From NCBI RefSeq assembly GCF_020531845.1, contig NZ_JAJAVF010000002.1:1461543-1525542 (forward strand): DNA of 64,000 nucleotides, written 5' to 3'. The notes under the pieces are model-generated. The model had not been told where the DNA came from, did not search any database, and worked only from the letters and a program-made list of their open reading frames with translations. The DNA is from Methylobacillus methanolivorans. GTDB taxonomy: Bacteria; Pseudomonadota; Gammaproteobacteria; Burkholderiales; Methylophilaceae. A program made the translations under genes and the position numbers. Numbering within the stretch: position 1 is the stretch's first letter; each line of letters starts with the position of its first letter. Positions 25,806 to 46,642 of the stretch are shown piece after piece.

Positions 25806-25825
25806 CGAACAGAAAAGAGTGCATC

Positions 25826-26017: not shown

Positions 26018-26053
26018 ATGAAATAAAGCCGGACATGTCCGGCTTTATTTCAT
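26018..26053. terminator. 36-bp perfect palindrome acting as bidirectional terminator
   Basis: The sequence from ATGAAATAAAGCCGGACA onwards is its own reverse complement over 36 bases, centred on GGACATGTCC. T-rich ends on both strands allow termination of the zinc-finger gene and of the convergent murI, whose stop codon lies inside the stem. Confidence 0.85.
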
Positions 26054-26898
26054 TCCAGCACTGAAACCGTTTGATGCGTCAGAGCCTCAATCACAATAGG
26101 CTCCCCATGCAATCGCTCAATCAGTTGCACAGCATGAGTTGAAGGACTATTAGTCCAGCAATGCACGCCTCCCAATCCTTGAGTACCAGCCAGCAAACCT
26201 CGCTCATACAATCGATGGCGAAGCTGCCTAGCCACAGCCTCTCCTGTATCGATTAACACAATATCCGGCCCGGCAATCTCGGCAATCAATGATTTGACAA
26301 ACGGATAGTGCGTACACCCGAGCACAATAGTGTCAGCACCAGCCTGAATAAGCGGCAATACATAGTCGGCCACCAGCGACCGCGCTGTGTCAGAAGCCAA
26401 TTCCCCACGCTCTATGCACTCCACCAAGCCAATACATGCCTGAGTCACCACCTGAATATTCTTGCCATAATTTTCAAGCAAGGCGGAAAATTGCGCACTT
26501 TGTAATGTTCCAGTCGTGGCCAACACGCCTACCACACCATTACGTGTGGCAGCAGCAGCAGGTTTCACTGCGGGTTCCATTCCGATAATCGGCAAATCAA
26601 GCTCTTGCCTGAGCGTCTTGATCGCAGCAGCTGTTGCCGTATTGCATGCCACGACGATTGCTTTCGCCCCCTGCTCTATCAGGAATCGCGCAATGCTGCG
26701 CGAGCGATCAATAATAAAAGCCTGGGATTTAGGTCCATAGGGAGCATGCAGGGAGTCCGCAAAGTAAAGTAGCGACTCCGCCGGAAGCTGCTCATGAATA
26801 TGTCGTAGTACGCTCAACCCTCCAACGCCGGAATCAAAGATCCCAATCGCAGGCCGCAGGTCTTGCTTTCCCGCTATCAATACTGATGAATTAGGCAC
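26050..26898 (-). CDS. murI: Glutamate racemase
   Basis: Converts L-glutamate to D-glutamate for peptidoglycan. The 282-residue protein shows both catalytic cysteines in context: AIVVACNTATAAA (first cysteine, about residue 85) and TIVLGCTHYPFVKSL (second, about residue 197). The N-terminal IGIFDSGVGGLSVLRHI and the substrate motif ADSLHAPYGPKSQ are diagnostic. Monocistronic, convergent with the ilvE transcript. Confidence 0.97.
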   Translation of the reverse strand: MPNSSVLIAGKQDLRPAIGIFDSGVGGLSVLRHIHEQLPAESLLYFADSLHAPYGPKSQAFIIDRSRSIARFLIEQGAKAIVVACNTATAAAIKTLRQELDLPIIGMEPAVKPAAAATRNGVVGVLATTGTLQSAQFSALLENYGKNIQVVTQACIGLVECIERGELASDTARSLVADYVLPLIQAGADTIVLGCTHYPFVKSLIAEIAGPDIVLIDTGEAVARQLRHRLYERGLLAGTQGLGGVHCWTNSPSTHAVQLIERLHGEPIVIEALTHQTVSVLE

Positions 26899-27003
26899 GA
26901 TCTACAAAATAAGTGAATACATGGGCAGTTTACCCAAGCATGCGCTGAGGAGCCAGCAGTCACATGTTTTACAATACGCATGATGATTTCAGCGAGAATG
27001 AAC

Positions 27004-27570
27004 ATGGGTAACCGCTTAAGCAAGATATATACGCGTACCGGCGACGATGGCACAACTGGCCTTGGCGATGGCAGTCGTATTGAAAAAGATAGCCTACGGG
27101 TCGAAGCGATGGGTTGCGTTGATGAGCTTAACGCAGCCCTTGGAGTGCTACTTGCGGAAGCATTACCTGAACAGATAACGCATTACCTCATACAAATCCA
27201 GCATGATCTTTTTGATTTGGGAGGAGAAATCTCCATTCCGAACTTCCAATTACTACCACCCAATCGAGCCCAAGAGCTGGAGCAAGTGCTGGATATGCTC
27301 AATACGAATCTCCCGCCACTCAAGGAATTTATTCTCCCTGGCGGCAGCCGGCCTGCAGCACTCTGCCATTTGGCACGCACCATATGCCGCCGTACAGAAC
27401 GCGTATTGCTGACCCTGCATCGGCAACATCCAACCTCGCCCGCCACATTGCCTTACATTAACCGCCTATCTGACCTGCTATTTGTCATCGCTCGCCATCT
27501 CAATCAAGCAACTGGACAAAGTGACGTACTGTGGCAACGACATCGCGCCGAGACCAATATCAAGAAATAG
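27004..27570 (+). CDS. ATP:cob(I)alamin adenosyltransferase, PduO type
   Basis: Makes adenosylcobalamin from cob(I)alamin and ATP. The 188-residue helical-bundle protein has the N-terminal ATP loop SKIYTRTGDDGTTGLGDGSR, the block VEAMGCVDELNAALGVLLAE, FILPGGSRPAALCHLARTIC, the RRTERVLL segment and the terminal RLSDLLFVIARHLNQ. All are normal for PduO/MMAB. Three ATGs are close together; I chose 27004 because GCGAGA lies 6 bases before it and the family N-terminus (MGNRLSKIYTRTG) follows. No other B12 gene is near. Confidence 0.94.
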   Translation: MGNRLSKIYTRTGDDGTTGLGDGSRIEKDSLRVEAMGCVDELNAALGVLLAEALPEQITHYLIQIQHDLFDLGGEISIPNFQLLPPNRAQELEQVLDMLNTNLPPLKEFILPGGSRPAALCHLARTICRRTERVLLTLHRQHPTSPATLPYINRLSDLLFVIARHLNQATGQSDVLWQRHRAETNIKK

Positions 27571-27571
27571 A

Positions 27572-27625
27572 ATAAAAATATAGGAAAAAAGTATTTTTAA
27601 CTATTAAAAACCATTGCTAAAGTGC
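27572..27625 (+). promoter_or_regulatory. Sulfur-island promoter element A (porin)
   Basis: A 54-base AT-rich element 44/54 identical to the one at 29551-29604. It holds ATAAAAATATA, then TATTTTT, 16 bases, and an extended -10-like TGCTAAAGTGC. The same TATTTTT-N16-TGnTA spacing recurs before cysT. I read it as an activator (CysB-like) site plus extended -10 promoter; the regulator is an inference. A stem-loop (GCTAT ctttcaa ATAGC) follows at 27630-27646. Confidence 0.6.
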
Positions 27626-27666
27626 GAGCTATCTTTCAAATAGCACTTTTAAAGAACCTCTACACC

Positions 27667-27750
27667 ATGTCGATATTAGCCTTGGCATTTGCATTAGGTC
27701 TTATCCGCTGTCGAGGCAGTTATCGGGCATGTCAAACCCGACCAGAATAA
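27667..27750 (+). CDS. Possible short leader ORF with two Cys codons
   Basis: ATG to TAA, 27 codons, inside the 320-base gap before the porin. The peptide starts MSILALAFALGLIRC and contains Cys at positions 15 and 22, both TGT. No good ribosome-binding site is visible, so it may be chance. The rest of the 27571-27891 gap, apart from promoter element A, shows nothing I recognise. Confidence 0.25.
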   Translation: MSILALAFALGLIRCRGSYRACQTRPE

Positions 27751-27891
27751 AGGTCATATTGCGACATCCCATGATTTTCTAATCAACTTTAATACCTACT
27801 GTATCACCAGCGGTTACACATCAACACTTGTTCATAAGCAAGGTTCGCTTGCCAGTCCACTGGAAGCAACACAACATCAGGGAGACTTATC

Positions 27892-29469
27892 TTGTTCAAT
27901 AAAACTGGGCTTATCCAGCTATTGATTGCCAGCGGCATTGTCCTCACGGCAGGCCTCAGCTATGCCGCCGAAGAAACGGCAAACACGGCATTATCAGCGG
28001 AAGAAATTGACCAACAAGAACGCATCAAGGCACGCAAGGCAGAGATTGCAGCAGAAGCTGCTTTGGCCAAGAAAGCTGAAAAAGGCTATTGGGTAGCGCC
28101 ACGCGCTTATGGAACACAACGTGAGACAGAGCCACCTCGTTTTGTTAAGCCAATAGAAAAAACCTGGCTGAAGGAATACACAGATATCGATTGGCTGGAC
28201 GTGGGGGCAGACTATCGCTTCCGCTACGAAAACCGTGAAAACGACTTCCGCCGTGGCGTGAATGTGACTGACGAACCTTTCCTGTTACGTTCACGTATTT
28301 ATGTTGCCGTGCGCAATAAATTCGATCCATTACGTTTCACGCTGGAAGCCGAAGATGCGCGTCGCAACCACAGCAATTTTGCCCGTGATAATCGCGACGT
28401 CGACTTGGCAGAACCTATCCAGGCTTATGCAGAACTATTCTTCAAGGATGGCTTGGGCAAGGATGATCTCGGTAATGATCGTCCGGTAAGTCTCAAGGCT
28501 GGCCGTATGGCGTTTGAACAGCTTGATCGCCGCCTGATTGCCCGTAATGAATGGCGCAACACGACCAATACATTCCAAGGTGTTCGTGCCACATTTGGTC
28601 AACACAAAAATGATTGGGAATTGGACTTGCTTGCTTTACAGCCCATCGTGCGCCTGACTGAGCAACTCAACCAGCGTGACAAATCGCAATGGTTTTATGG
28701 GGCTATTTTCGATTGGCGCAAGTGGTCCGATATCGTGACTTTGTCCCCCTCCTATTTCTACCTGAAACAAGATGGTGATGAAGTAAAGTATACATCCAGC
28801 GGTAGCCTTGCTACTGCCGCCCAGCGCCTAGATCGCTCAATCCATACTGCCGGCCTCCGTGGCTACGGCCTTATTGGAAAAACTGGCTTGGACTATGACC
28901 TCAGCTATTACCGCCAGTGGGGTGAAGAGGACAGAACACTGACAGCAAAGCGGGATCACCGTGCCTATTCGTATATTGCTGAAATCGGTTATACAGCCGA
29001 CCATGAGTGGAAACCACGTTTCAGCGCCAATTATGGTGTTGCCAGCGGAAACAAAGCCTCAAGCACGGGAACTCAAGAACGTTTTGACCGTTTGTTCGGG
29101 TTTGCGCGACCATGGTCCAGCAACGATTACATCCAGATGGAAAATATCAACGCCACCAAGGTACGAGCGGAATTCAGTCCTTTCACAGGAGTGAATATAG
29201 ATACTGGATACAGTTGGTACAAACTGGACAGCGCGACTGATCGCTGGGGTGCGGGCAATAACCTTGTTGATGCCACAGGTCGCAGCGGCCGTGACTTAGG
29301 CGAAGAATGGGATATCCGCGTACGCTTCCCTGTTGTAGATAAAGTATCTGCTAACGTAGGTTATGCCTACTTCAAAGGTGGTGACTTTATTAAGAATGCC
29401 CCTGCAACACTTGGTCGCAAAGACACCTCCAACTTCTTCTATGTTGAACTGACGGTCAGCGCTTTCTAG
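27892..29469 (+). CDS. Large outer-membrane porin, alginate-export (AlgE) type fold
   Basis: A signal peptide (FNKTGLIQLLIASGIVLTAG ... LSYAAE) is followed by a charged helical linker of about 45 residues (QQERIKARKAEIAAEAALA) and a long barrel domain with DVGADYRFRYENRENDF, FRLRSRIYV-like strands, GRMAFEQLDRRLIARNEW and a C-terminal ...FFYVELTVSAF ending in Phe. This pattern fits the 18-stranded alginate-export/OprE-like porins, which admit varied anionic solutes. Start is TTG with GGGAG six bases upstream. Its promoter element is shared with the sulfur genes, so the inferred cargo is a sulfonate, sulfate ester or similar sulfur source. It ends in a strong terminator. Confidence 0.82.
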   Translation: MFNKTGLIQLLIASGIVLTAGLSYAAEETANTALSAEEIDQQERIKARKAEIAAEAALAKKAEKGYWVAPRAYGTQRETEPPRFVKPIEKTWLKEYTDIDWLDVGADYRFRYENRENDFRRGVNVTDEPFLLRSRIYVAVRNKFDPLRFTLEAEDARRNHSNFARDNRDVDLAEPIQAYAELFFKDGLGKDDLGNDRPVSLKAGRMAFEQLDRRLIARNEWRNTTNTFQGVRATFGQHKNDWELDLLALQPIVRLTEQLNQRDKSQWFYGAIFDWRKWSDIVTLSPSYFYLKQDGDEVKYTSSGSLATAAQRLDRSIHTAGLRGYGLIGKTGLDYDLSYYRQWGEEDRTLTAKRDHRAYSYIAEIGYTADHEWKPRFSANYGVASGNKASSTGTQERFDRLFGFARPWSSNDYIQMENINATKVRAEFSPFTGVNIDTGYSWYKLDSATDRWGAGNNLVDATGRSGRDLGEEWDIRVRFPVVDKVSANVGYAYFKGGDFIKNAPATLGRKDTSNFFYVELTVSAF

Positions 29470-29497
29470 CACTATCGTTCAGGTATACCTCCACTCA

Positions 29498-29526
29498 ACC
29501 GGGAGCCAATGGCTTCCGGTTTTTTT
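29498..29526 (+). terminator. Intrinsic terminator of the porin gene
   Basis: Ten-bp stem ACCGGGAGCC / GGCTTCCGGT (one G-U pair), loop AAT, then seven T residues. Confidence 0.9.
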
Positions 29527-29550
29527 ACGCCCACATATTCCAAAATATAT

Positions 29551-29604
29551 ATAAAAATATAAAAACAAATTATTTTTAACTATTTAATAACCTTGTTACA
29601 GTGC
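29551..29604 (+). promoter_or_regulatory. Sulfur-island promoter element B (sbp operon)
   Basis: Second copy of the 54-base element: ATAAAAATATA, TATTTTT (29571-29577), 16 bases, TGTTACAGTGC (from 29594). It lies 33 bases before the YezD-like gene and should drive that gene, sbp and the two small genes after it. Confidence 0.65.
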
Positions 29605-29636
29605 ACTCATTCATTGAACACTGCCAAGGCAAACGT

Positions 29637-29840
29637 ATGTCACACGAATCCAAACCGAAACCTAACGATGAAGTGATCCAGGAAATTATCCGCTCCATTG
29701 ACCTACTGCGTTTTGGCTCAATTGAAATCACGGTACACGATGGTCGGGTCACCCAAATAGAACGTAGGGAAAAAGTACGTTTCAACCATGATGCCCCAAA
29801 AATAAAACAAACCCTACAACGCGTGGTTATCAACCACTAA
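29637..29840 (+). CDS. YezD-like DUF2292 small protein
   Basis: A 67-residue protein with the DUF2292 signature [20 protein letters not shown] followed by REKVRF. The family (Bacillus YezD) is small, of unknown biochemical function, and is found repeatedly beside sulfate and cysteine genes, which matches this location: sbp follows 26 bases downstream. I chose the ATG at 29637, where the family N-terminus begins and AAGG lies upstream. It is the first gene behind promoter element B. Confidence 0.85.
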
Positions 29841-29866
29841 CTTTCAAATCATCCAAGGATTGTTGC

Positions 29867-30877
29867 ATGAAACGTTTTTTACCCCAGATCGCCAGTTTGA
29901 TCACATTAACCGCCCTGAGTAGCTCACTGACAGCGCTGGCTGCGGATATCACCCTGTTGAATGTTTCCTATGACCCAACCCGAGAACTCTATCAGGAGTA
30001 CAACAGCGCCTTCGCCAAATACTGGCAGGCCAAGACTGGTGACAAGGTCACGATCAAAGCCTCTCATGGCGGCTCGGGCAAGCAAGCCCGCTCTGTGATT
30101 GATGGCTTGCAGGCTGACGTCGTCACCCTGGCATTGGCATACGATGTAGATGCACTCTATGAAAAAGGCAAACTGGTAAATAAGGACTGGATCAAACGCC
30201 TACCTGACAACAGCTCACCCTACACTTCCACTATCGTGTTCCTGGTACGCAAAGGCAACCCTAAGAACATCAAGGATTGGGATGACCTGATCAAGCCTGG
30301 CATCAAAGTAGTCACCCCTAATCCCAAAACATCCGGCGGCGCTCGCTGGAACTACCTGGCAGCCTGGGCATATGGTCAAAAGAAGTTCAACAATGATGAA
30401 GCCAAGACTCGTGAATTCATTGGCAAAATCCTGAAGAATGTCCCTGTCCTTGATTCTGGCGCACGCGGTGCTACTACCACCTTTGTTGAAAGAGGCATTG
30501 GTGATGTATTGCTCGCCTGGGAAAACGAAGCTTTTCTTGCACAAAAGGAACTTGGTCCAGACAAATTCGAGATCGTGGCTCCATCTCTCTCGATCCTGGC
30601 TGAGCCATCCGTATCTGTCGTCGATAAAGTCGTAGACAAACGTGGCACTCGCAAGGTTGCCGAGGCCTATCTGGAATACCTTTACAGTGAGGCAGGCCAG
30701 GAGCTTGCAGCCCAGAACTACTACCGCCCACGTTTAGAATCCGTAGCCAAGAAGTATGAAAAGACTTTCCCGCATCTCAGCCTGGTCACAGTAGATTCAG
30801 CATTTGGTGGTTGGCAAAAAGCGCAAAAAACGCACTTTGCTGATGGCGGTACCTTTGATCAGATTTACCAACAATAA
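29867..30877 (+). CDS. sbp: Periplasmic sulfate-binding protein (first copy)
   Basis: Solute-binding component of the sulfate ABC importer. A 25-residue signal peptide ends SLTALAA before [20 protein letters not shown]. Sulfate-binding family blocks follow: [80 protein letters not shown] and the C-terminal [20 protein letters not shown]. Length 336 is normal. The permease and ATPase (cysTWA) are 7 kb away in a different transcript, and a second sbp lies beside them. The two differ clearly (YDVDAL versus NDIDIL at the mouth), so affinity or substrate may differ. Confidence 0.95.
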
Positions 30878-30898
30878 ACCTTAATTTCTTGATTAACA

Positions 30899-30927
30899 GG
30901 CGGCGCCAGGCACAACCTGGCACCGCC
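30899..30927 (+). repeat. Strong intercistronic stem-loop
   Basis: Stem GGCGG-C-GCCAGG / CCTGGC-A-CCGCC with loop CACAA, between sbp and the DUF2325 gene. No T-run follows, so it more likely protects the sbp mRNA 3' end and lowers expression of the downstream genes than terminates. Confidence 0.6.
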
Positions 30928-30950
30928 AGCAGCCAAAGGAGACTCTCATC

Positions 30951-31304
30951 ATGAGTACTGCGTTAATTGTAGGCGGCGACCAGATTGAAGGCATCAAGCA
31001 AGAGCTATCCAATTTTGGTGTTACGCATATCAACCACTGGTCAGGCCGTAAAGTTGGTGATGGCAAGAAAGTCATTCCCCAAGACACCGACCTCATCGTA
31101 TTGGTGACTGACTGGATCAGTCATACATTCACTCACAAGATCAAGCAGAGCGCAGCTAAACGCGGCGTCAGGATTGTATATACGCCGAATGGCCCCAGTG
31201 CATTGCGCATACGCCTGAAGCAAATCAATCCAGACTACGTTCAGGAGAGTGAGTGTAGCAGCCAATACCAAAGCCAGCGGCAAGCGCGCCACTCACTGAA
31301 TTAA
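30951..31304 (+). CDS. DUF2325 family protein
   Basis: A 117-residue protein with the DUF2325 pattern: TALIVGGDQIEGIKQELSNF (a nucleotide-binding-like first strand and turn), INHWSGRKVGD, DTDLIVLVTDWISHTFTHKI and GVRIVYTPNGPSALRIRL. The fold is predicted Rossmann-like; no reaction is known. AAAGGAG precedes the ATG. It lies between sbp and the molbindin-like gene, so it should be expressed under sulfur limitation; a role in sensing or handling oxyanions is possible but speculative. The polar tail (ECSSQYQSQRQARHSLN) looks disordered. Confidence 0.82.
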   Translation: MSTALIVGGDQIEGIKQELSNFGVTHINHWSGRKVGDGKKVIPQDTDLIVLVTDWISHTFTHKIKQSAAKRGVRIVYTPNGPSALRIRLKQINPDYVQESECSSQYQSQRQARHSLN

Positions 31305-31343
31305 CCAGCAATCACGATTTGATGTAGCAAAAGGAGTTTTATC

Positions 31344-31559
31344 ATGGCAATTCACGCAATTAATGTCCGTAACCAATTTCGCGGCAGGATCAAGGAAATC
31401 GTCCTGGGGCCAGTGGTCTCTGAAGTAGATGTTGAAACCCCGGTAGGTATAGTCACCTCTGTCATCACCACTCGCTCAGTCAATGAACTGAACCTGCAGA
31501 TTGGGACTGAAGTTCTGGCGCTGATCAAGGCAACTGAGGTATCTCTCGCCAAGGTTTAG
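31344..31559 (+). CDS. Molbindin-like TOBE-domain protein
   Basis: A 71-residue single TOBE/Mop domain (VRNQFRGRIKEIVLGPVVSE, VDVETPVGIVTSVITTRSV, LGIGTEVLALIKATEVSLAK-like end). Proteins of this type form hexamers that bind molybdate or tungstate in the cytoplasm. AAGGAG precedes the ATG. Its position at the end of the sulfate-binding operon suggests that it buffers molybdate that enters through the sulfate importer, or that it binds sulfate-like oxyanions; both are inference. A terminator follows. Confidence 0.85.
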   Translation: MAIHAINVRNQFRGRIKEIVLGPVVSEVDVETPVGIVTSVITTRSVNELNLQIGTEVLALIKATEVSLAKV

Positions 31560-31608
31560 CTAGCCGCGCTCAGGTGCAACGCAAGCCTGATCTCATCCTC
31601 ATCAATCA

Positions 31609-31636
31609 AAAGGCCAGGGATTGCTCCCTGGCCTTT
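31609..31636. terminator. Bidirectional terminator
   Basis: Perfect 12-bp stem AAAGGCCAGGGA / TCCCTGGCCTTT with loop TTGC, between the convergent TOBE gene and the desulfurase gene. Confidence 0.85.
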
Positions 31637-31666
31637 CGTGTTAGCACTTTGCCAAGTGTTAATAGA

Positions 31667-33538
31667 TTAACGCTTGGCAGATGCCAGTCTCAGTAGCACC
31701 CCTTGCAGCACATCCACTTCTGCATATGTATTGTAGAAAGCCAAGGACGGCCTGACCGTGGTTTCCACGCCAAAACGGCGCAGAATGGGCTGCGCGCAAT
31801 GATGACCAGAGCGTACGGCAATCCCTTCCTGGTTCAACGCTGCGCCAACTTCCTCACTCTTGTACCCATGCAGGTTGAATGACAATACACTGGCTTTATT
31901 CTGGGCAGTGCCTATCAAGCGCAAGCCCGGCACTTTGTGCAGCGCGGCTGTCGCATAGACCAGTAGTTCATGCTCGTAGTGCGCAATATTTTCTATGCCC
32001 AGACGCTCAACATACTCGAGTGCAGCGCCCATCCCAACAGCATCAGCAATATTGCCAGTACCGGCCTCAAACTTGGCCGGCGCAGCGTGATAGACAGTTT
32101 TCTCGAAGGTGACGTCTTGAATCATGTTGCCGCCACCTTGCCAGGCTGGCATATCCTCCAGCACCGCTGCCTTACCGTACAAAGCACCTATGCCGGTCGG
32201 GCCAAAAATCTTGTGCCCGGAGAACACCAGGAAGTCGCAATCCAGCAACTGCACATCGGTACGCATATGCGACACGGATTGAGCACCGTCAAGCAGCACT
32301 TTTGCACCCACGGCATGCGCCATGGCGATCATCTGCTGTGCAGGTGTCACCGTCCCTAATGCATTGGAAACCTGGGTAAAGGAAACCAGCTTGGTGTGTG
32401 AAGTCAGCAGCTTCTGGTACTCGTCCAGCAACACCTGGCCACTATCATCCACGGGTACCACTTTCAACTTGGCACCAGTCTCCTGGCATAACTGCTGCCA
32501 GGGCACGATATTGGCATGATGCTCCAGGTTGGTGACCACAATCTCGTCACCTTCGCCCAGGTGCTTCTTGCCCCAAGTCTTGGCTACCAGGTTGATCGCT
32601 TCTGTCGTACCGCGCACGAAGACGATATTTTCCACCGAAGGTGCATTGATGAAGCGCCGCACGGTTTCACGCGCCCCTTCGTAGGCATCCGTCGCACGTG
32701 CCGCCAACTCATGCGCTGCACGATGGATATTGGAGTTTTCATGCTGGTAGAAATAGGACAAGCGATCAATCACTACTTGTGGCTTCTGGGTAGTCGCTGC
32801 GTTATCCAGCCAGATCAACGGCCTGCCGTTGACCAACTCACGCAAGATCGGGAAATCCTTGCGTACCAGATTGACGTCAAACGGTGGATGCGCAGAATCT
32901 GCAACATCGGGTACTCGCGGTGATTCGGCAAGGAAATAGAACGGCGACGACGCCTTGCTGTTGGCAGCTTTGCCTGAACCTGCAGCACTAGCAGGAACAC
33001 CGCTAAACGGTGATGCCAGCAAACCCAGATCCATAGCATAAGGAATGTCGAGCCCACCCAGCAAGCCACTGATATCCAGGCCAGGTAAAGTAGGAACAGA
33101 CCCCACAGCATCAACGCGCTCCTGGCTGAATTCTGGTGGCAAATCAGACGGCGACACTCCGAAGCTGGGAGACCTGACTGGCAAAGTTTCAGCGCCCGGC
33201 ACCACGTTAGTGGCAGCTGGCAAGCCCGTAGGCACCGCAGAAACGATGGAAGGAGCTGCAGGCACAGGAGCACCAATAGTCGGACTGCCTGCCCCATAAG
33301 GTGCGGCGGAATCCGAGAGCGACGTCACCGACGGGGCATCTTGTGGCAAACGAGGAAACCCCTCCGCATACAGCTCATTGGCTATGCGGGTAAGCTCATC
33401 AACATCCAGGTGACCACCTGATTGCGCTTCACGACCCACGGCCAATGCAGCCGCCATGCGTGGATGCTCACCAGGCAAAGAGGCCAGAATGGCTTCGGGT
33501 TCAAAAGAAGACAGATCGTTGAGGTTACTTGTAGTCAT
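31667..33538 (-). CDS. Cysteine desulfurase with N-terminal encapsulin-targeting domain
   Basis: SufS-like (class II) PLP enzyme that releases sulfur from cysteine as a persulfide. The catalytic domain starts near residue 222 (FDVNLVRKDFPILRELVNG) and holds WLDNAATTQKP, TNLEHHANIVPW, the PLP-lysine block FSGHKIFGPTGIGALYG and the catalytic cysteine in VRSGHHCAQP. In front lies an extra 220-residue Pro/Ala/Ser/Gly-rich, presumably disordered domain with a short helical part (VDELTRIANELYAEGF), a motif GLDISGLLGGLDIPYAMDLG and SPFYFLAES. Such N-domains direct desulfurases into family 2A encapsulin shells. The start lies 14 bases inside the encapsulin gene just upstream, so cargo and shell are translationally coupled. 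Confidence 0.93.
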   Translation of the reverse strand: MTTSNLNDLSSFEPEAILASLPGEHPRMAAALAVGREAQSGGHLDVDELTRIANELYAEGFPRLPQDAPSVTSLSDSAAPYGAGSPTIGAPVPAAPSIVSAVPTGLPAATNVVPGAETLPVRSPSFGVSPSDLPPEFSQERVDAVGSVPTLPGLDISGLLGGLDIPYAMDLGLLASPFSGVPASAAGSGKAANSKASSPFYFLAESPRVPDVADSAHPPFDVNLVRKDFPILRELVNGRPLIWLDNAATTQKPQVVIDRLSYFYQHENSNIHRAAHELAARATDAYEGARETVRRFINAPSVENIVFVRGTTEAINLVAKTWGKKHLGEGDEIVVTNLEHHANIVPWQQLCQETGAKLKVVPVDDSGQVLLDEYQKLLTSHTKLVSFTQVSNALGTVTPAQQMIAMAHAVGAKVLLDGAQSVSHMRTDVQLLDCDFLVFSGHKIFGPTGIGALYGKAAVLEDMPAWQGGGNMIQDVTFEKTVYHAAPAKFEAGTGNIADAVGMGAALEYVERLGIENIAHYEHELLVYATAALHKVPGLRLIGTAQNKASVLSFNLHGYKSEEVGAALNQEGIAVRSGHHCAQPILRRFGVETTVRPSLAFYNTYAEVDVLQGVLLRLASAKR

Positions 33539-34442
33539 AGTAGTTGCCTACGTCTACATTCTCCAGCACGGCAATCGCATCTTCGGTCAGTACCGCCAGC
33601 GAGCAATAAAGTGAAACCAAGTATGAAGCAATCGCCTTGTGGTTGATACCCATGAAGCGTACGGAAAGCCCCATGCTTTGTTGACCCGGCAGGTTAGGTT
33701 GATACAGGCCTACAACACCTTGACGGCTTTCGCCTGTGCGCAACAGCAGAATGTTGGTCTTGCCCTTGGTCACGCGCAGCTTGTCACACGGAATCAAGGG
33801 GATGCCACGCCATGTGATGAACTGTGAGCCAAACATGCTGACAGTAGGAGGTGGTACGCCGCGACGAGTGCATTCACGCCCAAACGCAGCAATCGCCTGT
33901 GGGTGTGCCAGGAAAAATGCAGGCTCTTTCCACACGCGGGAAATCAACTCATCAAAATCATCTGGTGTGGGAAATCCGGTGCGCGACTTAACCTTTTGGC
34001 CATCTGCCACGTTGTGCAGCAAGCCGTATTCCTTGTTATTGATTAGTTCGCTTTCCTGGCGTTCCTTGACGGTTTCGATGGTCAGGCGCAACTGCTCGCG
34101 AATCTGGTTGTGCGGGCTACTGTAGAGATCGGAAATACGGGTATGGACATCAACCACAGTATTCACTGCATTCAGCACATACTCACGGCCCCACTCTTCA
34201 TAATCCACAAAAGTAGCAGGCAACTCACGCTCATCCTTGGCAGAGCAATCCACCTCGACATTGTGGTTGTCTTTCACCTTATTGACACGGTAGATACCCG
34301 CCTCAACCGGCACCCATTGCAGCAGGTGTACTAGCCAACGTGGTGTGATAGACCCAAGCATGGGGACTGTTTTGGTCGCATTGGCAAGCGTGCGCGCTGC
34401 AACATCCCCTAATGCGGTATGGGCCTGATGAATATCTGACAT
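33525..34442 (-). CDS. Family 2A encapsulin shell protein (SrpI-like)
   Basis: HK97-fold protein that assembles into an icosahedral protein shell. The 305-residue chain matches the SrpI/family 2A group: LANATKTVPMLGSITPRWLV, LLQWVPVEAGIYRVNKVKD, a long E-loop/spine helix region (VDVHTRISDLYSSPHNQIRE, LRLTIETVKERQESELINN), TPDDFDELISRVWKEPAFFL, RRGVPPPTVSMFGSQFITWR and SMGLSVRFMGINHKAIASYL. It lacks features of phage assembly genes, and the neighbours (acetyltransferase upstream, desulfurase cargo downstream) are those described for this encapsulin family, which in cyanobacteria is induced by sulfur starvation. AGGAG lies 7 bases before the ATG. Confidence 0.93.
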   Translation of the reverse strand: MSDIHQAHTALGDVAARTLANATKTVPMLGSITPRWLVHLLQWVPVEAGIYRVNKVKDNHNVEVDCSAKDERELPATFVDYEEWGREYVLNAVNTVVDVHTRISDLYSSPHNQIREQLRLTIETVKERQESELINNKEYGLLHNVADGQKVKSRTGFPTPDDFDELISRVWKEPAFFLAHPQAIAAFGRECTRRGVPPPTVSMFGSQFITWRGIPLIPCDKLRVTKGKTNILLLRTGESRQGVVGLYQPNLPGQQSMGLSVRFMGINHKAIASYLVSLYCSLAVLTEDAIAVLENVDVGNYYDYK

Positions 34443-34497
34443 GAAAGCTCTCCTAAAAAATTACCAATCAATGGCAGGCAAATGCCTGCCCTATTCA

Positions 34498-35460
34498 CTA
34501 CTGAACTGCCGGATGACTCACAGCGCCATTAGAATGGCCTGTAGATGTCCCCTCCTTCATCTGTATCTGGGTAATATTGCTATTCGGGGGAACGCTATAT
34601 GTAAGCCAGACATTGCCACCAATCACCGAGCCGCGACCAATCGTAATACGGCCGAGAATCGTCGCGCCGGCATAAATGACGACATCGTCCTCGACAATTG
34701 GGTGTCGTTCATTGCCCTTCACCAAACTGCCATCGGCATCCTGCGGGAAACGCTTGGCGCCAAGAGTCACAGCTTGGTACAACCTGACATGCCTCCCAAT
34801 AATGCTGGTTTCCCCGATCACGACCCCGGTGCCATGGTCAATGAAAAATCCCTCATCGATCTGAGCGCCCGGGTGAATATCAATACCCGTGGCAGAGTGA
34901 GCGATCTCAGTGATCATGCGCGCAATTAATGGCACGCCAAGTTTGTGCAGCAAGTGGGCAATACGATAGTGGATCATAGCGTTGATGCCCGGATAACAAA
35001 CCAGCACCTCATCTACGCTGCGTGCTGCCGGGTCGCCTTCATAGGCAGCACGTATATCGCTATCCAACAAGTGACGTACTGCTGGCAACTGAGCAGCAAA
35101 CTTGCGCACTAAATCCGTGGCACGTTCACGCACTGCTGCCAACGCTGATGTTTCTGCGACGAAGCTCAACTCCAGGCGCACCTGAACCACCAACTCCCGC
35201 AATGCAACGTCCAGCGTATTGCCGACAAAATAATCGATCCCTTCCTCTCGCAAATCCGGCAAGCCGAGACGATTGGGAAACAAGGCAGCACCCAGCCCCT
35301 CCACCACATCCGCTAGCGCCTTGCGTGCTGGCAGTTTGGGAGGTCGGTTCAAGCGATTCCGGTGTTCCAGCGAGGTGAGCCTAACCTCACGCAGCTTGCC
35401 TACAATCTGGCTAATTCCCAGTTCGTCGCCCAACTCAATATTTTTTTCATGCTGACTCAT
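34498..35460 (-). CDS. Serine O-acetyltransferase (EpsC type)
   Basis: Makes O-acetylserine, the carbon acceptor for cysteine synthesis. An N-terminal helical domain (residues about 1-165, with LADVVEGLGAALFPNRLG and LLDSDIRAAYEGDPAARSVD) precedes the left-handed beta-helix of hexapeptide repeats: IDIHPGAQIDEGFFIDHGTG, VVIGETSIIGRHVRLYQAVT, LGAKRF and GNERHPIVEDDVVIYAGATI. The catalytic Asp-His and His pairs are in place. The C-terminal 20 residues are a polar tail (KEGTSTGHSNGAVSHPAVQ). Start at ATG 35460. First gene of the acetyltransferase - encapsulin - desulfurase operon, preceded by a leader with a terminator. Confidence 0.94.
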   Translation of the reverse strand: MSQHEKNIELGDELGISQIVGKLREVRLTSLEHRNRLNRPPKLPARKALADVVEGLGAALFPNRLGLPDLREEGIDYFVGNTLDVALRELVVQVRLELSFVAETSALAAVRERATDLVRKFAAQLPAVRHLLDSDIRAAYEGDPAARSVDEVLVCYPGINAMIHYRIAHLLHKLGVPLIARMITEIAHSATGIDIHPGAQIDEGFFIDHGTGVVIGETSIIGRHVRLYQAVTLGAKRFPQDADGSLVKGNERHPIVEDDVVIYAGATILGRITIGRGSVIGGNVWLTYSVPPNSNITQIQMKEGTSTGHSNGAVSHPAVQ

Positions 35461-35490
35461 CAAGTCCTACCCACAAGTGACCTTGTAAAA

Positions 35491-35546
35491 ACAAAAAAGC
35501 CAGCCCCTCTCAAGAGAGGAGCTGGCTTCCGGTTGTCCGGTCAGCT
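35491..35546 (-). promoter_or_regulatory. Candidate attenuator in the leader of the encapsulin operon
   Basis: On the minus strand a terminator stem (AAGCCAGC, wobble, CCTCTC paired with GAGAGG, GCTGGCTT; 35497-35528) followed by TTTTTTGTTTTT stands about 30 bases before the acetyltransferase ATG. Its 5' arm can instead pair upstream: AGCTG-A-CCGG-ACAA-CCGG-AAGC-CAGCT (35520-35546). The two folds exclude each other. The stop codon of a 21-codon leader ORF touches the upstream arm. Structure is read from sequence; switching is inferred. Confidence 0.6.
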
Positions 35547-35611
35547 TACGCTAACGATGTATGGAAATGCTGTACTGAAATTAATTCAAGTTCACAATGC
35601 TTGTTGTCCAT
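35546..35611 (-). CDS. Candidate leader peptide ORF
   Basis: A 21-codon ORF beginning MDNKHCELELISVQ and ending HFHTSLA, with one Cys codon (TGT, codon 6) and stop TAA at the edge of the antiterminator arm. An in-frame ATG three codons earlier (35620) is also possible. No clear ribosome-binding site is visible, which is the main weakness. The other parts of the 35461-35812 gap hold the attenuator, an inverted repeat and the promoter of the second sbp. Confidence 0.4.
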   Translation of the reverse strand: MDNKHCELELISVQHFHTSLA

Positions 35612-35669
35612 ACTGAACATGGTGCAACAAACATATCACGTCGGGAAGACTACCACATATTCAATTAAC

Positions 35670-35683
35670 TTCTATACATAGAA
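35670..35683. promoter_or_regulatory. Inverted repeat between divergent sulfur operons
   Basis: TTCTAT-AC-ATAGAA, a perfect 6-bp inverted repeat with a 2-base spacer, midway between the encapsulin operon (minus) and sbp2 (plus). Candidate binding site for a regulator of both. Confidence 0.4.
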
Positions 35684-35749
35684 CTATAAAATATATTAAT
35701 TCCCACCCATTAAATAACCAATAAATTTAATTATATTCCACTATATTCT

Positions 35750-35778
35750 TTTACATTATTACAATAATTTCTTATAGT
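35750..35778 (+). promoter_or_regulatory. Sigma-70 promoter of second sbp
   Basis: TTTACA (-35), exactly 17 bases, TATAGT (-10); each hexamer is one base off consensus. Transcription start expected near 35785, 28 bases before the sbp2 ATG. Upstream is very AT-rich and contains ATTAAATAACC, a motif also seen in element B. Confidence 0.7.
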
Positions 35779-35812
35779 ACCGCACATTCCCTCCCATCTC
35801 TCCGAGGCCTAC

Positions 35813-36802
35813 ATGCTAAGAAAAATAGTGGCAATCAGTCTTTTTGCCGTCGCAGGAATTGTTCATGCAGATACCACACTACTCAACGTTTCGTATGATG
35901 TAACACGCGAATTCTACAAAGACTTTAATCCCGCCTTCAGTAAATTCTGGAAACAAAAAACTGGTGAATCCGTCACCATCAATCAATCACATGGCGGTTC
36001 CAGCAAGCAGGCCAGAGCCGTAGCAGATGGCTTGCAGGCTGACATCATCTCCATGAACCAGAGCAATGATATTGATATCTTGTTCGAGCGCGGCAAGCTG
36101 ATTCCCGCTGACTGGCAGAAACGTCTGCCCAATGCCAGCTCACCCACCACATCCACCACCGTCTTTCTCGTGCGTAAAGGCAACCCCAAGAACATCAAGG
36201 ATTGGGACGACCTCATTAAACCTGGCGTCGGTGTCGTGATCCCTAACCCCAAGACCTCGGGCAATGGACGCTATAGCTATCTTGCCGCCTGGGGCGCGGT
36301 TATCAAGAAAGGTGGGGATGAAGCCAAAGCACGTGATTTTGTCGCTCGCTTATTTAAGAACGTTCCTGTCCTGGATGCAGGTGGACGCGGTGCCACTACG
36401 ACATTTATTCAGCGTGGCATTGGTGACGTATTGCTCACGTTTGAGAATGAGGTATTTCTCATCAATAAAGAGTTAGGTAACAATAACTTCGACGTGGTGT
36501 ATCCATCTTCCAGCATCCTGGCAGAAAATCCCATCGCACTGGTTGACAAGGTGGTAGACAAGCGCAAGACACGCCAAATTGCACAAGCCTACCTGGAGTT
36601 TCATTACTCACCAGAAGGCCAGGAAATCGCCGCACGGCATTACCTGCGCCCACGTTCTGCGGAAGTATTGGCTGCACACAAGGACGATTTCAGGCCACTG
36701 CAACTCTTTACCGTAGATGAGACATTTGGCGGCTGGCAAAAAGCCCAAAAAACGCACTTTGCTGATGGCGGCATATTTGACCAGATTTACGTCAATAAAT
36801 AA
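35813..36802 (+). CDS. sbp: Periplasmic sulfate-binding protein (second copy)
   Basis: Second sulfate ABC solute-binding protein, 329 residues. Signal peptide MLRKIVAISLFAVAGIVHA, then [20 protein letters not shown]. It shares the family blocks [60 protein letters not shown] and [20 protein letters not shown] with the copy at 29.9 kb. GAGG precedes the ATG. It has its own good promoter and is followed after 12 bases by the EAL gene; cysTWA lie beyond that behind a further promoter. This is the more likely partner of the adjacent permease. Confidence 0.95.
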   Translation: MLRKIVAISLFAVAGIVHADTTLLNVSYDVTREFYKDFNPAFSKFWKQKTGESVTINQSHGGSSKQARAVADGLQADIISMNQSNDIDILFERGKLIPADWQKRLPNASSPTTSTTVFLVRKGNPKNIKDWDDLIKPGVGVVIPNPKTSGNGRYSYLAAWGAVIKKGGDEAKARDFVARLFKNVPVLDAGGRGATTTFIQRGIGDVLLTFENEVFLINKELGNNNFDVVYPSSSILAENPIALVDKVVDKRKTRQIAQAYLEFHYSPEGQEIAARHYLRPRSAEVLAAHKDDFRPLQLFTVDETFGGWQKAQKTHFADGGIFDQIYVNK

Positions 36803-36814
36803 GCGGCCACAATC

Positions 36815-37699
36815 ATGACCAAGCAAAACGTCTCCACATCCATCGCTATAGAGCAATTGAAAGCCCAGTTGCGAGAATCGCTTTATCTCGACCTTGATGA
36901 ATATGGGCTAGAAGAACAGTCTTCGGGAGAGTTCAATAGCTCATTCCTGGGACTGCAACTCAACAGTGCCTTCCAGCCTATCTACGATAGTGAAGCAGGC
37001 GATTTGTTTGGTCATGAAGCGTTTATCCGCCCCTCGCTCGGTGGCCAACAAGCCATTAATCCAGAGTTTGCCTTCAGCTTTGCCGGGCAAGTTGGCAAGC
37101 TGGTAAAGTTTGATCGCGTTGTCCGCACGCTTCATGTACTGAACTTCCGTCAGATTTATGCAGAAAATGGCTTGTTGTTCCTCAATGTACACCCCAATTT
37201 GCTGATGAGCGTCAACGCGCACGGTAAAGTATTCGAGCGCATCCTGCATGCGAACTCTGTTCCCACCCATCGCGTCGTCATTGAAATACAGGAAAGTGTC
37301 GTCGAGCATGAGCATCAACTGGCAGATGCCATTGAAAACTACACAGAACGAGGCTACCGCATCGCGATTGGCAACTTTGGCAGCAAGCACTCCCATCTGG
37401 AACGGCTATGGAAACTTGCCCCCGAGTTTGTCAAACTTGATATTGGCCTGATCAAAGAAGCCGAGCGTAATACCCGCATGCGCAAGATATTGCCGCGCTT
37501 GATCCAGCTCATCCATGACATCGGTGCGCAACCTGTGATTACCGGCATCGAGTCTCAAACCGGCCTCGACATTGCAGTGGAATCTGGTACTACTCTGCTG
37601 CAAGGATACTTCCTAGGCAAACCGGTGACTGCCAAGGAGCTTCAACCCACGCAAGCACTCAAGCCTTCATTGCAGTTGAACAAACGAGCAGCCGCGTGA
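36815..37699 (+). CDS. Degenerate EAL-domain protein in the sulfate operon
   Basis: A 294-residue soluble protein whose residues about 45-285 form an EAL (c-di-GMP phosphodiesterase-type) domain. Kept: Glu of GHEAFIR, Asn of FLNVHPNLL, Glu of VIEIQES, Lys of FVKLDI, Glu of TGIES and Gln of LLQGYFLGKP. Lost: the metal-binding Asp pair of DDFGTG, which reads GNFGSK here. So it probably does not cleave c-di-GMP and may bind it, or act by protein contacts. The 45-residue N-terminus is acidic and unlike known sensors. Only 12 bases separate it from sbp2, so it is part of a sulfate-uptake transcript. Its job there is unknown. Confidence 0.85.
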   Translation: MTKQNVSTSIAIEQLKAQLRESLYLDLDEYGLEEQSSGEFNSSFLGLQLNSAFQPIYDSEAGDLFGHEAFIRPSLGGQQAINPEFAFSFAGQVGKLVKFDRVVRTLHVLNFRQIYAENGLLFLNVHPNLLMSVNAHGKVFERILHANSVPTHRVVIEIQESVVEHEHQLADAIENYTERGYRIAIGNFGSKHSHLERLWKLAPEFVKLDIGLIKEAERNTRMRKILPRLIQLIHDIGAQPVITGIESQTGLDIAVESGTTLLQGYFLGKPVTAKELQPTQALKPSLQLNKRAAA

Positions 37700-37739
37700 T
37701 GCCGCAGCACATAGAAAAATAACCCCGAGCTATATCGTT

Positions 37740-37785
37740 ATAAAAACATATTATTTTTTGCGCGCAGCCACTTCTGCTACATTGC
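37740..37785 (+). promoter_or_regulatory. Sulfur-island promoter element C (cysTWA)
   Basis: Contains ATAAAAACATA, then TATTTTT (37752-37758), exactly 16 bases, and TGCTACATTGC (37775-37785), the same layout and spacing as elements A and B. It lies 38 bases before the cysT ATG. Confidence 0.6.
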
Positions 37786-37823
37786 AGCGGCCTTGCTCCA
37801 GCCACACACACTAAATTCACAAT

Positions 37824-38663
37824 ATGGCAAAAAAACACAAACCACATAACGTATTGCCTGGCTTTAACTTATCTCTTGGCTATACCTTGTTATACCTGAG
37901 CCTGATAGTACTGATTCCATTATCAGCTGCCTTTTTCAAGACGACAGAGTTAAGCCTTGCAGAGTTTTGGCACACTGTCACCACACCCAGAGTGATCGCT
38001 TCATACAAGCTCACTTTCGGCGCATCCTTGTTTGCAGCGCTGATCAATGCAGTGTTCGGTTTGCTTACTGCCTGGGTGCTGACCCGCTATACATTTCCCG
38101 GGAAGAAGCTGGTAGACGCATTGGTGGACTTACCATTCGCCCTGCCTACCGCAGTGGCTGGCATTGCACTGACAGCAGTCTACTCAGGCAATGGCTGGAT
38201 TGGCAGCCTGATCGAGCCATATGGCCTCAAGGTAGCCTTTACTCCGTTAGGCGTCGTCGTGGCCTTGACATTTATTGGGCTACCCTTCGTTGTCCGCACC
38301 GTACAACCTGTGCTGGAAGACCTAGAAGCAGAAACTGAGGAAGCTGCAGCCAGCTTAGGCGCAAATCGTTGGCAGACCTTTCATCGCGTTATCCTACCAG
38401 CCCTCTGGCCAGCCCTGCTCACTGGATTTGCACTCGCGTTTGCCCGTGCAGTGGGTGAGTATGGCTCCGTGATTTTCATCGCTGGCAATATGCCGATGAT
38501 TTCCGAGATCACACCGCTCATCATCATCACCAAACTCGAACAATACGACTACACCGGCGCAACTGCAGTTGCCGTAGTCATGCTGGTCATCTCTTTCCTA
38601 CTATTGCTCACCATCAACGGCCTGCAGTGGTGGAGCAGCAGCCGCAACAGCGCATCGCGATAG
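37824..38663 (+). CDS. cysT: Sulfate ABC transporter permease CysT (CysU)
   Basis: One of two inner-membrane channel subunits of the sulfate/thiosulfate importer. Six membrane helices are visible in 279 residues; the start PGFNLSLGYTLLYLSLIVLI is typical of CysT. The ATPase-contact (EAA) loop reads EAAASLGANRWQTFHRVILP near residue 175. The C-terminal helix ends with a short polar tail. Promoter element C lies upstream, and cysW follows 11 bases after the stop codon. Confidence 0.96.
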   Translation: MAKKHKPHNVLPGFNLSLGYTLLYLSLIVLIPLSAAFFKTTELSLAEFWHTVTTPRVIASYKLTFGASLFAALINAVFGLLTAWVLTRYTFPGKKLVDALVDLPFALPTAVAGIALTAVYSGNGWIGSLIEPYGLKVAFTPLGVVVALTFIGLPFVVRTVQPVLEDLEAETEEAAASLGANRWQTFHRVILPALWPALLTGFALAFARAVGEYGSVIFIAGNMPMISEITPLIIITKLEQYDYTGATAVAVVMLVISFLLLLTINGLQWWSSSRNSASR

Positions 38664-38674
38664 GAATACACCTT

Positions 38675-39571
38675 ATGTCAACCACTGTTTCCCAATTCGC
38701 CCGTTACAATGCCAAGGTAGCACGCAATCGTGCCACCTCCGAGCCAGCCTGGGTACGCTGGACGCTGATTATTTCTGCGCTGCTGTTTCTCAGCCTATTC
38801 CTGTTTGTTCCCTTGGCAGCCGTATTTACTGAAGCATTACGCAAGGGCTTCGACACTTACCTTGCTGCCCTGATTGAGCCCGATGCCGTTTCCGCGATCA
38901 AGCTCACGCTCATCGCAGCCGCCATCTCGCTACCGCTTAACTTGGTATTCGGTATTGCAGCCGCCTGGGCCATTGCCAAATTCGAGTTCAAGGGCAAAAG
39001 CATTCTGATCACCCTGATTGACCTGCCATTTGCAGTCTCCCCGGTCATTGCAGGCTTGATCTATGTATTGATCTTTGGATTGCAAGGCTGGTTTGGCGAG
39101 TGGCTAATTGATCATGATTACAAAGTCATTTTCGCCATCCCCGGCATCGTCCTCGCCACGATCTTCGTTACATTCCCCTTCATTGCACGTGAATTAATCC
39201 CACTCATGCAAGCTCAAGGTAAGGAAGAAGAAGAGGCAGGCTTGGTATTGGGTGCTTCAGGCTGGCAAATCCTCTGGCACATCACCCTGCCAAATATCAA
39301 ATGGGGCTTGCTGTATGGCGTCATCCTCACCAATGCCCGTGCCATGGGCGAATTTGGCGCTGTCTCGGTGGTATCAGGCCATATTCGCGGGCTCACCAAC
39401 ACCATGCCGCTCCATGTGGAAATCCTCTACAACGAATATAACTATGCCGCGGCCTTTGCTGTCGCCTCGCTACTGGCCTTCCTAGCGTTAATAACACTGG
39501 CACTCAAGTCATACATTGAGTGGCAAAGTGGCCGTAGCGCCAGCGCACGTGAAAAAGCCTCTGACCAATAA
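38675..39571 (+). CDS. cysW: Sulfate ABC transporter permease CysW
   Basis: Second channel subunit of the sulfate importer, 298 residues with six membrane helices. The EAA loop reads EEEAGLVLGASGWQILWHIT and the family segment ARAMGEFGAVSVVSGHIRGL follows. An N-terminal cytoplasmic extension of about 30 residues precedes the first helix (LIISALLFLSLFLFVPLAAV). I set the start at 38675, with AGGA upstream, rather than at an ORF start inside cysT. cysA follows after 35 bases. Confidence 0.96.
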   Translation: MSTTVSQFARYNAKVARNRATSEPAWVRWTLIISALLFLSLFLFVPLAAVFTEALRKGFDTYLAALIEPDAVSAIKLTLIAAAISLPLNLVFGIAAAWAIAKFEFKGKSILITLIDLPFAVSPVIAGLIYVLIFGLQGWFGEWLIDHDYKVIFAIPGIVLATIFVTFPFIARELIPLMQAQGKEEEEAGLVLGASGWQILWHITLPNIKWGLLYGVILTNARAMGEFGAVSVVSGHIRGLTNTMPLHVEILYNEYNYAAAFAVASLLAFLALITLALKSYIEWQSGRSASAREKASDQ

Positions 39572-39606
39572 CGTACTGACCGCACCACCGTCACAAGGAT
39601 GACATC

Positions 39607-40683
39607 ATGAGTATCGAAATCCGCAATATCAAAAAAGAATTTGGCAGTTTTACCGCACTAGGAGACGTCAGCCTTGATGTTCCCAGCGGCGAACTTGTCG
39701 CCCTGCTTGGTCCTTCAGGATGCGGTAAAACTACACTATTGCGCATCATCGCGGGCCTGGAATCTCCCGATTCTGGCAGCATACATTTCCATGGTGAAGA
39801 AGCCACAAACCGCGACGTACGTGAACGCGAAGTGGGCTTCGTATTCCAGCATTACGCCTTGTTCCGCCACATGACAGTGTTTGAGAATGTCGCGTTTGGC
39901 TTACGTGTTCGCCCTAAAAAGACACGCCCCACAGAGGCCGAAATCCACCGTCGCGTTCACCAGCTCTTAAGCCTGGTGCAACTGGACTGGCTGGCCGACC
40001 GTTATCCACCACAACTTTCCGGTGGCCAGCGCCAACGCATCGCACTCGCCCGCGCTTTGGCCGTTGAGCCCAAAGTTTTGTTACTGGATGAACCCTTTGG
40101 AGCCTTGGACGCCAAGGTGCGTAAAGACCTGCGTCGCTGGCTGCGCCGACTGCACGACGAACTGCACATCACCAGCGTCTTCGTCACTCATGATCAGGAA
40201 GAAGCGCTCGAAGTCGCAGATCGCATCGTCGTCATGAACCAGGGCAAGATCGAGCAAATAGGCTCTCCGCAAGAAGTGTACGACAGCCCGGCCTCACCAT
40301 TCGTCTATCAATTCCTCGGCAACGTCAACCAGTTCCACAGCCGCGTAGATCAAGGCCAAGCGCATATCGGCGACATCAGCCTCGCACTGGACGAGCACCA
40401 CACCGTACAGAACAGCGATGCTCTTGCCTACGTACGTCCACACGACATCGACATCTATACCGAGCAAAACGGCAGCCCCGCATTACAAGCCGTGGTCAGC
40501 TACATCCATGCGGCTGGCCCACTTGTCAGGCTTGAACTACAGCCTACCAACAATGCCGACATCATCGAAGCAGAAATCACCCGTGAACGCTTCCGCGAGC
40601 TCGCCATCCGCCAGGGCAGCGCAGTATTCCTCAAGCCACGCAGCGTACAAGTTTTTCTTCAAGGTAGTAGCACTGCCAGTTGA
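39607..40683 (+). CDS. cysA: Sulfate ABC transporter ATPase CysA
   Basis: ATPase that powers sulfate/thiosulfate import, cytoplasmic face. Walker A is GPSGCGKTT (residues 36-44), the signature is [19 protein letters not shown], Walker B is [11 protein letters not shown], and the switch His is in [16 protein letters not shown]. The C-terminal 110 residues form the TOBE-like regulatory domain ([16 protein letters not shown]). Length 358 is usual. It closes the cysTWA operon, and a strong terminator lies 44 bases downstream. Confidence 0.96.
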
Positions 40684-40726
40684 GCACTGATTAGCGTTAT
40701 CAACAACCAGCCGACCCGACCACAGG

Positions 40727-40760
40727 AGGCCCGCGTGATGAAAATCCCGCGGGCCTTTTT
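40727..40760 (+). terminator. Intrinsic terminator after cysA
   Basis: Stem AGGCCCGCG / CGCGGGCCT with a 12-base loop, then a run of five T residues. Confidence 0.85.
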
Positions 40761-40787
40761 ATTTACAGCCCACACAAGGAGCACTCC

Positions 40788-42065: not shown

Positions 42066-42171
42066 TGACCATCGCCACGCCTATCTAGAGCATGGGAGCC
42101 CAAGACGAGCAACAGTGACTTTGTCCACCTCTTACTCTGGTCAAGTCTAAATAGTCTTTGGTGGAGTTAAG

Positions 42172-46640: not shown

Positions 46641-46642
46641 TG

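Follow-up and report, generated by a model that had tools for sequence, protein, structure and literature searches.

How the building of a family 2A encapsulin is tied to the sulfur supply of the cell is the question raised by a three-gene operon of Methylobacillus methanolivorans (RefSeq assembly GCF_020531845.1), which codes for a serine acetyltransferase (SAT), an encapsulin shell and a SufS-type cysteine desulfurase. The operon lies within a stretch of 64,000 nt of contig NZ_JAJAVF010000002.1 (positions 1,461,543–1,525,542), hereafter the window, in whose numbering all positions are given. Taken alone, it is one more example of a type already well described and adds little to what is known. 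Upstream of its first gene, SAT, we found a conserved leader RNA composed of a core hairpin and an intrinsic terminator, a candidate new cis-regulatory RNA without an Rfam 15 match that would tie the encapsulin to a sulfur regulon (Table 1). We propose, at a probability of roughly three in four, that the compartment houses the desulfurase and is served by a dedicated SAT, and that its expression is gated by this leader, acting as a transcription attenuator of the sulfur regulon.

The core hairpin has the consensus GCU-GA-CCGG-ACNA-CCGG-A-AGC, the invariance of which is overstated because most sites were chosen by pattern, and its 3' strand doubles as part of the 5' arm of the terminator. Because the AGC belongs to both, the full core hairpin and the full terminator are predicted to be mutually exclusive, whereas the inner four pairs are compatible with the terminator. 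The folding energy of the window leader is 4.9 standard deviations below that of shuffled sequences (z -4.9), with -8.1 kcal/mol for the core hairpin and -25.0 kcal/mol for the terminator. The latter has the longest stem among 18 terminator-like sites in 27500–41000, where 13.5 are expected by chance, and is thus notable by strength and place only. The block GCTGACCGGACAACCGGAAGCC stands directly before the terminator in many of 24 upstream sequences compared, and a degenerate pattern derived from it has one exact match in the window (0.07 expected even at three mismatches). Thirteen of 24 shell-bearing genomes were matched by this pattern, once each, and none by the reversed pattern. With up to two mismatches and a following T run, it occurs upstream of the shell in 45 of 80 shell loci (the best 80 of 577 confirmed in a genome collection), at a distance of 0.1–2.5 kb that varies with whether the first gene is the shell, SAT or cysK.

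A structure alignment of 42 sites (the window and 41 of these 45 loci, with L029, L031, L034 and L046 left out) supports a hairpin of four pairs and, after it, a terminator stem of 11 pairs; 96.7% of its cells pair. Double changes occur in nine of the 15 pairs and in 51 cells altogether, whereas shuffling gives 11.5 on average and none of 500 shuffles reached the observed count; such shuffle counts are not probabilities, since the sites are related by descent. Sliding the partner strand destroys the pairing support. When the 25-nt core is folded, GCU/AGC pairs are added to the hairpin in 96 of 105 sites. Over 54 distinct cores, obtained from 111 sites (the 105 with at most two mismatches and six FadL leaders with three to five), 97.4% of cells conform to the seven pairs, and double changes number 16, compared with a shuffled mean of 3.1 and a maximum of 8 in 500 shuffles. 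A longer antiterminator, GCUG/CAGY, fits 79 of the 105 sites fully, but showed no double changes in its own helix and was not used. Just upstream of the core, and overlapping it, an extra hairpin (GTTAGC-N4-GCTGAC, 35540–35555, minus strand) is present in the window and in several Methylophilaceae leaders, and none was seen in the Methylococcales leaders compared; it would compete with the core hairpin for the GCU.

The distribution of the element was followed with a covariance model, R1, at a strong-match threshold of 45 bits, which was our own choice and leaves matches of 26–43 bits, some of them real second copies, outside the counts. The family to which the M. caricis genome belongs was sampled with 150 genomes; 54 of these have the shell and 51 have strong element matches: 49 of the 54 shell-bearing genomes and two of the 96 shell-less ones (Fisher p 4e-31, uncorrected for kinship). 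All 49 matches in shell genomes are upstream of the shell on the same strand, 89–1217 nt away, and in the two shell-less exceptions (G021 and G148) the element precedes a SAT-like gene (L124, L125). A class-level draw of 369 genomes yielded strong matches in G001 and G323 only, plus one weak match of 33.9 bits, and an order-level draw of 300 genomes yielded matches only in G001, G004, G012, G019 and G021, all of which are also in the family draw. For the methanotroph order, to which a Methylomonas genome (G162) belongs, matches at E 1e-5 were obtained in 59 of 151 genomes.

What lies behind the element was surveyed for all 74 matches of at least 45 bits in the methanotroph order (55 genomes), with downstream genes recognised by similarity to a small reference set built from the same loci. 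The first recognised same-strand gene is cysK in 36 cases, shell in 10, SAT in nine, a sigma-54 activator in eight, cysJI in three, a FadL-type gene in three and a PKD-domain protein gene in two (the tandem elements of L145); none was recognised in two (L158, L182), and one match is at a contig edge (L180). Since every training site of R1 precedes an encapsulin operon, the cysJI, FadL and sigma-54 contexts were not built in. Representatives were identified as cysK (L128, TIGR01139, 451 bits, cut-off 351), cysJ and cysI (L159; TIGR01931, 773 bits over 668, and TIGR02041, 876 over 757), sigma-54 activators (L141 and L142, PF00158) and FadL-type proteins (L122 and L129, PF03349), while a small membrane protein after FadL weakly resembles the sulfur transport family PF04143 (19.4 bits, below the cut-off of 27). 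At 103 of 105 sites the terminator directly follows the block, in the same orientation relative to a recognised gene, one exception being a contig edge. The window itself holds a second, weaker copy before a FadL-type gene, and its relatives L121–L123 have a copy at the same place. Unusual arrangements were also observed: tandem elements 78 nt apart before the PKD-domain protein (L145, 1365–1512, plus strand), two consecutive shell-like open reading frames (ORFs) behind one element (L148), and one element before cysK-SAT with another before the shell (L157).

In the default state that we propose, the strong intrinsic terminator ahead of SAT would form in the nascent leader and bring transcription to an end. 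Were a factor to hold the core hairpin, whether a protein that binds RNA or a small molecule signalling sulfur status, the terminator would be blocked, because the hairpin uses the AGC of its 5' arm, and the operon would then be on. With the same element before cysK, cysJI, the FadL-type porin and the sigma-54 activator, the encapsulin would belong to a sulfur regulon under coordinated control. The expressed SAT would supply O-acetylserine for cysteine synthesis, and the N-terminal region of the desulfurase would pull this enzyme into the shell, where it would strip sulfur from cysteine for storage or for handing on. With regard to the direction of control, an element that is on in starvation fits the company of cysK, cysJI and the sulfate-uptake genes, and storage in sulfur excess would fit a compartment taking sulfur from cysteine.

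Several observations weigh against this proposal. The outer GCU/AGC pairs show only partial covariation, the third of them being U-A in 41, C-G in five and U-G in four of the 54 cores, and a C-A mismatch in the other four; the standard core is not folded in nine of the 105 sites. The minimum-energy fold of the window keeps both the 4-pair hairpin and the terminator, only the three outer pairs being in competition. Readthrough or termination at the leader is a prediction. The encapsulin does not need the element, because five of the 54 shell-bearing family genomes are without a strong match and 35 of the 80 shell loci are without the element in the 4.5 kb upstream; it is likewise absent within 4.5 kb upstream in all five loci titled Nitrosomonas. 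Finally, four of the 74 strong matches are followed by no recognised sulfur gene (the two PKD-protein cases and the two with nothing recognised).

An ordinary family 2A locus, whose leader element does no switching and is just a conserved terminator or the place where a small RNA ends, would agree with the terminator-dominated folds obtained throughout for this strand, with the 11 of 15 modelled pairs that belong to the terminator and with the frequency of terminator-like sites expected by chance in this region. We regard it as quite improbable, since a conserved 22-nt block outside the variable stem, a covarying core hairpin and a repeated same-strand place before cysK, SAT, shell, cysJI and FadL genes would all be left unexplained. 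The block may instead be a DNA operator, with an inverted repeat bound by a sulfur regulator and a terminator behind it by coincidence. CCGG-N4-CCGG is a dyad, and double changes would preserve a DNA dyad too; however, the outer GCU/AGC pairs are placed without symmetry (GA against A), and nothing about an operator calls for a terminator immediately after it in the constant orientation described above. We consider this explanation very unlikely. Attenuation by a leader peptide, in which ribosome stalling on the Cys codons of a short upstream ORF controls the terminator, is scarcely credible: the window does have two short overlapping ORFs just upstream, with one Cys codon each, but no leader ORF in common with it appears among the short ORFs listed for the other loci, and the sequence upstream of the core is not common beyond Methylophilaceae, and this candidate was rejected.

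Comparison with known regulatory RNAs revealed partial likenesses. In the ribonucleic antiterminator (RAT) switches of the LicT/BglG type, a small internal-loop hairpin overlaps the 5' arm of an intrinsic terminator, and on paper the present element is alike; it differs in its sequence and its sulfur-gene targets, and the BglG-type RNA-binding domain PF03123 was detected in none of the 20 genomes tested (control, four of 14 known genomes), for which reason a BglG-type factor was rejected as the antiterminator. Rfam 15 at gathering score gave no matches in 24000–43000 of the window or in six element-carrying loci. The best match on the operon strand, Thr_leader RF00506 (20.9 bits, E 0.12), is non-significant; this family and other amino-acid operon leaders also have a hairpin before a terminator, but the gathering score of 55 is far from reached in the window, most of the match falls within the terminator, and no leader peptide is conserved. 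The boldest reading, which we consider rather unlikely, makes the core hairpin an aptamer: it would represent a new class of very small riboswitches that respond to a sulfur metabolite, with cysteine, O-acetylserine, sulfide or a persulfide as candidate ligands, and set the methylotroph sulfur regulon including the encapsulin.

The identities of the genes behind the proposed attenuator are well supported. A sequence-only reading had placed a three-gene operon at 31667–35460; these coordinates hold, with all genes on the minus strand and with the SAT start taken at the ATG (the mechanical ORF begins at TTG 35463). The 14-base overlap that it reported between shell and desulfurase was recovered exactly. 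A desulfurase ORF was found in 78 of the 80 shell loci fetched, and in 68 of these 78 a start codon in its frame stands at the same overlap, so the overlap is not due to chance; SAT is present in 73 of the 80. Both the SrpI-like shell and the desulfurase, as proposed there, score above the curated family 2A cut-offs. The shell reaches 542 bits with NF041162 (cut-off 380) and, with a lower score, also exceeds the family 2B cut-off (425, cut-off 400); PF19307 (SrpI-like, 355 bits) is its sole Pfam match over 305 aa, without a cNMP-binding domain. Its gap-free alignment with SrpI (6x8m) has 231 of 298 residues identical (77.5%), from which the HK97 fold is near certain by homology. This identity was used because the AlphaFold model was below usable confidence (pLDDT 43, shallow alignment of 12), and the best Foldseek matches of that model, 6x8m and 8t6r (TM 0.40), are sequence-driven. 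The shell is 98% and 97% identical to those of M. caricis and M. rhizosphaerae, respectively, so the suggested betaproteobacterial host is correct, as a member of the traditionally betaproteobacterial Methylophilaceae.

The operon SAT passes the EpsC model NF041874 (165.5, cut-off 150) and fails the cysE model TIGR01172 (169.1, cut-off 210.65). The C-terminal Ile of CysE is the residue that binds CysK; because the operon SAT ends in ...SHPAVQ, it may work without the usual cysteine synthase complex. Many Methylococcales homologues end in ...GGAGI or similar. Elsewhere, the two nearest genomes encode another SAT, which does exceed the cysE cut-off, together with two more desulfurase-like genes whose scores fall well short of that for SufS; the encapsulin pair is therefore a specialised extra set.

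The desulfurase scores 896 bits with the family 2A cargo model NF041166 (cut-off 800), and its enzymatic domain can be aligned with SufS structures, in which both the SGHK lysine and the GHHC cysteine have counterparts; these two residues have catalytic roles in desulfurases. The supposed disordered cargo domain corresponds to an N-terminal low-complexity region of 224 residues (54% P/A/S/T/G/Q), disorder being judged from composition, and both published loading motifs are present in it. Among 74 cargo regions (the window and 73 loci, five loci without a clear boundary being dropped), loose forms of motifs 1 and 2 were found in 47 and 17, respectively, against shuffled means of 1.2 and 0.3.

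Table 1. Features of the leader RNA, the encapsulin operon and the neighbouring sulfur genes (positions in the window)
Feature	Position	Strand	Basis or remark
Leader RNA element (core hairpin + terminator)	35482-35548	-	R1 72.3 bits, E 6e-18; window copy among the 42 training sequences of R1
Core hairpin GCU-GA-CCGG-ACAA-CCGG-A-AGC	35525-35545	-	Covarying pairs over 54 distinct cores
Intrinsic terminator	35495-35530	-	16 pairs then U run; ends ~34 nt before SAT start; AGC common with core hairpin
Second, weaker leader element	40707-40771	+	R1 40.2 bits, E 5e-9; between cysA and FadL-type gene, 17 nt before the latter
SAT gene	34498-35460	-	320 aa from ATG; NF041874
Family 2A encapsulin shell gene	33525-34442	-	305 aa; NF041162; SrpI identity
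Cargo cysteine desulfurase (SufS type) gene	31667-33538	-	623 aa; 224-residue N-terminal cargo region; NF041166
Cargo-domain motif 1 LTRIANELY	33368-33394	-	Matches published LARLANEFFS motif
Cargo-domain motif 2 SSPFYFLAES	32921-32950	-	Matches published AASPYYFLDG motif
Second sulfate-binding protein gene	29867-30877	+	NF008022 573.9 bits, cut-off 288
DUF2325 protein gene	30951-31304	+	Between first sulfate-binding protein and operon
Single TOBE/Mop molybdopterin-binding-type protein gene	31344-31559	+	Between first sulfate-binding protein and operon
Divergent sulfate-uptake genes (sulfate-binding protein, EAL protein, cysT, cysW, cysA)	35813-40683	+	NCBIfam; Pfam for EAL
Sulfate-binding protein gene	35813-36802	+	NCBIfam
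EAL-domain protein gene	36815-37699	+	Between sulfate-binding protein and cysT; Pfam
CysT, CysW, CysA genes	37824-40683	+	Each above a curated sulfate-transporter cut-off
FadL/TodX-type outer-membrane protein gene, candidate regulon member	40788-42065	+	PF03349 119.9 bits

Sulfate-uptake genes were rightly said to flank the operon on both sides (Table 1), and a sulfate-binding or sulfate-permease gene occurs in 52 of the 80 shell loci, including 32 of the 42 with nearly full 8-kb flanks. Genes for DUF2325 are present in 20 of the 80 loci, and those for TOBE proteins in eight. In the Nitrosomonas loci L015, L018 and L020, the genes for the sulfate-binding protein, DUF2325, EAL, shell, desulfurase, cysT, cysW, cysA and SAT are ordered along one strand, and encapsulin and sulfate uptake are therefore probably on common transcripts there. 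EAL-like ORFs are near 30 of the 80 shell loci, mostly with degenerate active-site motifs. The DDFG and AEGVE motifs have their roles in EAL phosphodiesterases; the window protein has GNFG in place of the usual DDFG and ITGIE in place of AEGVE, and is probably not an active phosphodiesterase. An accessory role of this protein in the encapsulin was rejected, as its close orthologs track sulfate uptake and not encapsulin: in 11 regions around such orthologs, all outside shell loci, a sulfate-binding-protein gene lies within ~2.1 kb in nine, cysT adjoins the EAL gene in a tenth, and L103 has neither. This company suggests a sensor tied to sulfate uptake. Farther along, right behind the FadL-type gene, a CRISPR-like stretch (42085–49948, minus strand) contains an apparent array, with repeats translating into recurring peptides, followed by type II Cas1 (TIGR03639) and Cas9 (TIGR01865), and two TonB-dependent siderophore receptors (55962–58361 and 61235–63682, plus strand) are above the TIGR01783 cut-off.

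The family 2A compartment of Acinetobacter baumannii is reported to store sulfur. The shell of this cargo-loaded encapsulin (8t6r) is homologous to the window shell over its whole length (492 bits). The SrpI/CyD encapsulin of Synechococcus elongatus PCC 7942 (6x8m) resembles the window system in its shell, in a SufS-type cargo with both motifs and in its sulfur context; the window differs in having SAT inside the operon and a leader RNA, which is unmentioned for Synechococcus in the part of the source considered here (PMC8049743). Sulfate starvation induces the Synechococcus encapsulin, the N-terminal domain loads the cargo, and the structure was obtained by cryo-electron microscopy (PMC8049743). 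A 2021 catalogue counts 1281 operons of the family 2A desulfurase type; Proteobacteria have 813 of these, and the accessory genes most enriched in them are SAT and rhodanese (PMC8346489). Thus, of the sulfur-starvation setting in a betaproteobacterium that the sequence-only reading had put forward, the sulfur context stands, but a proteobacterial host is no novelty, and induction upon starvation had been demonstrated before in Synechococcus. In M. methanolivorans, shell assembly, cargo loading and a response to starvation are predictions, as that reading had allowed for assembly and loading. It was right about the shell and cargo family, the cargo domain, the operon and the sulfur context, and overlooked the conserved leader RNA, in which the novelty lies. 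A literature search returned no title or abstract start on this RNA or on a Methylobacillus encapsulin; preprints and most subscription papers were outside its scope, so that absence from print does not follow.

If the proposed attenuator is real, it would be a structured RNA with a regulatory role that Rfam 15 does not contain. In addition, a leader RNA common to the encapsulin and to cysteine- and sulfite-pathway genes offers a reporter-ready assay for the signal. This common leader RNA also gives a regulatory handle on when and why family 2A encapsulins are built.

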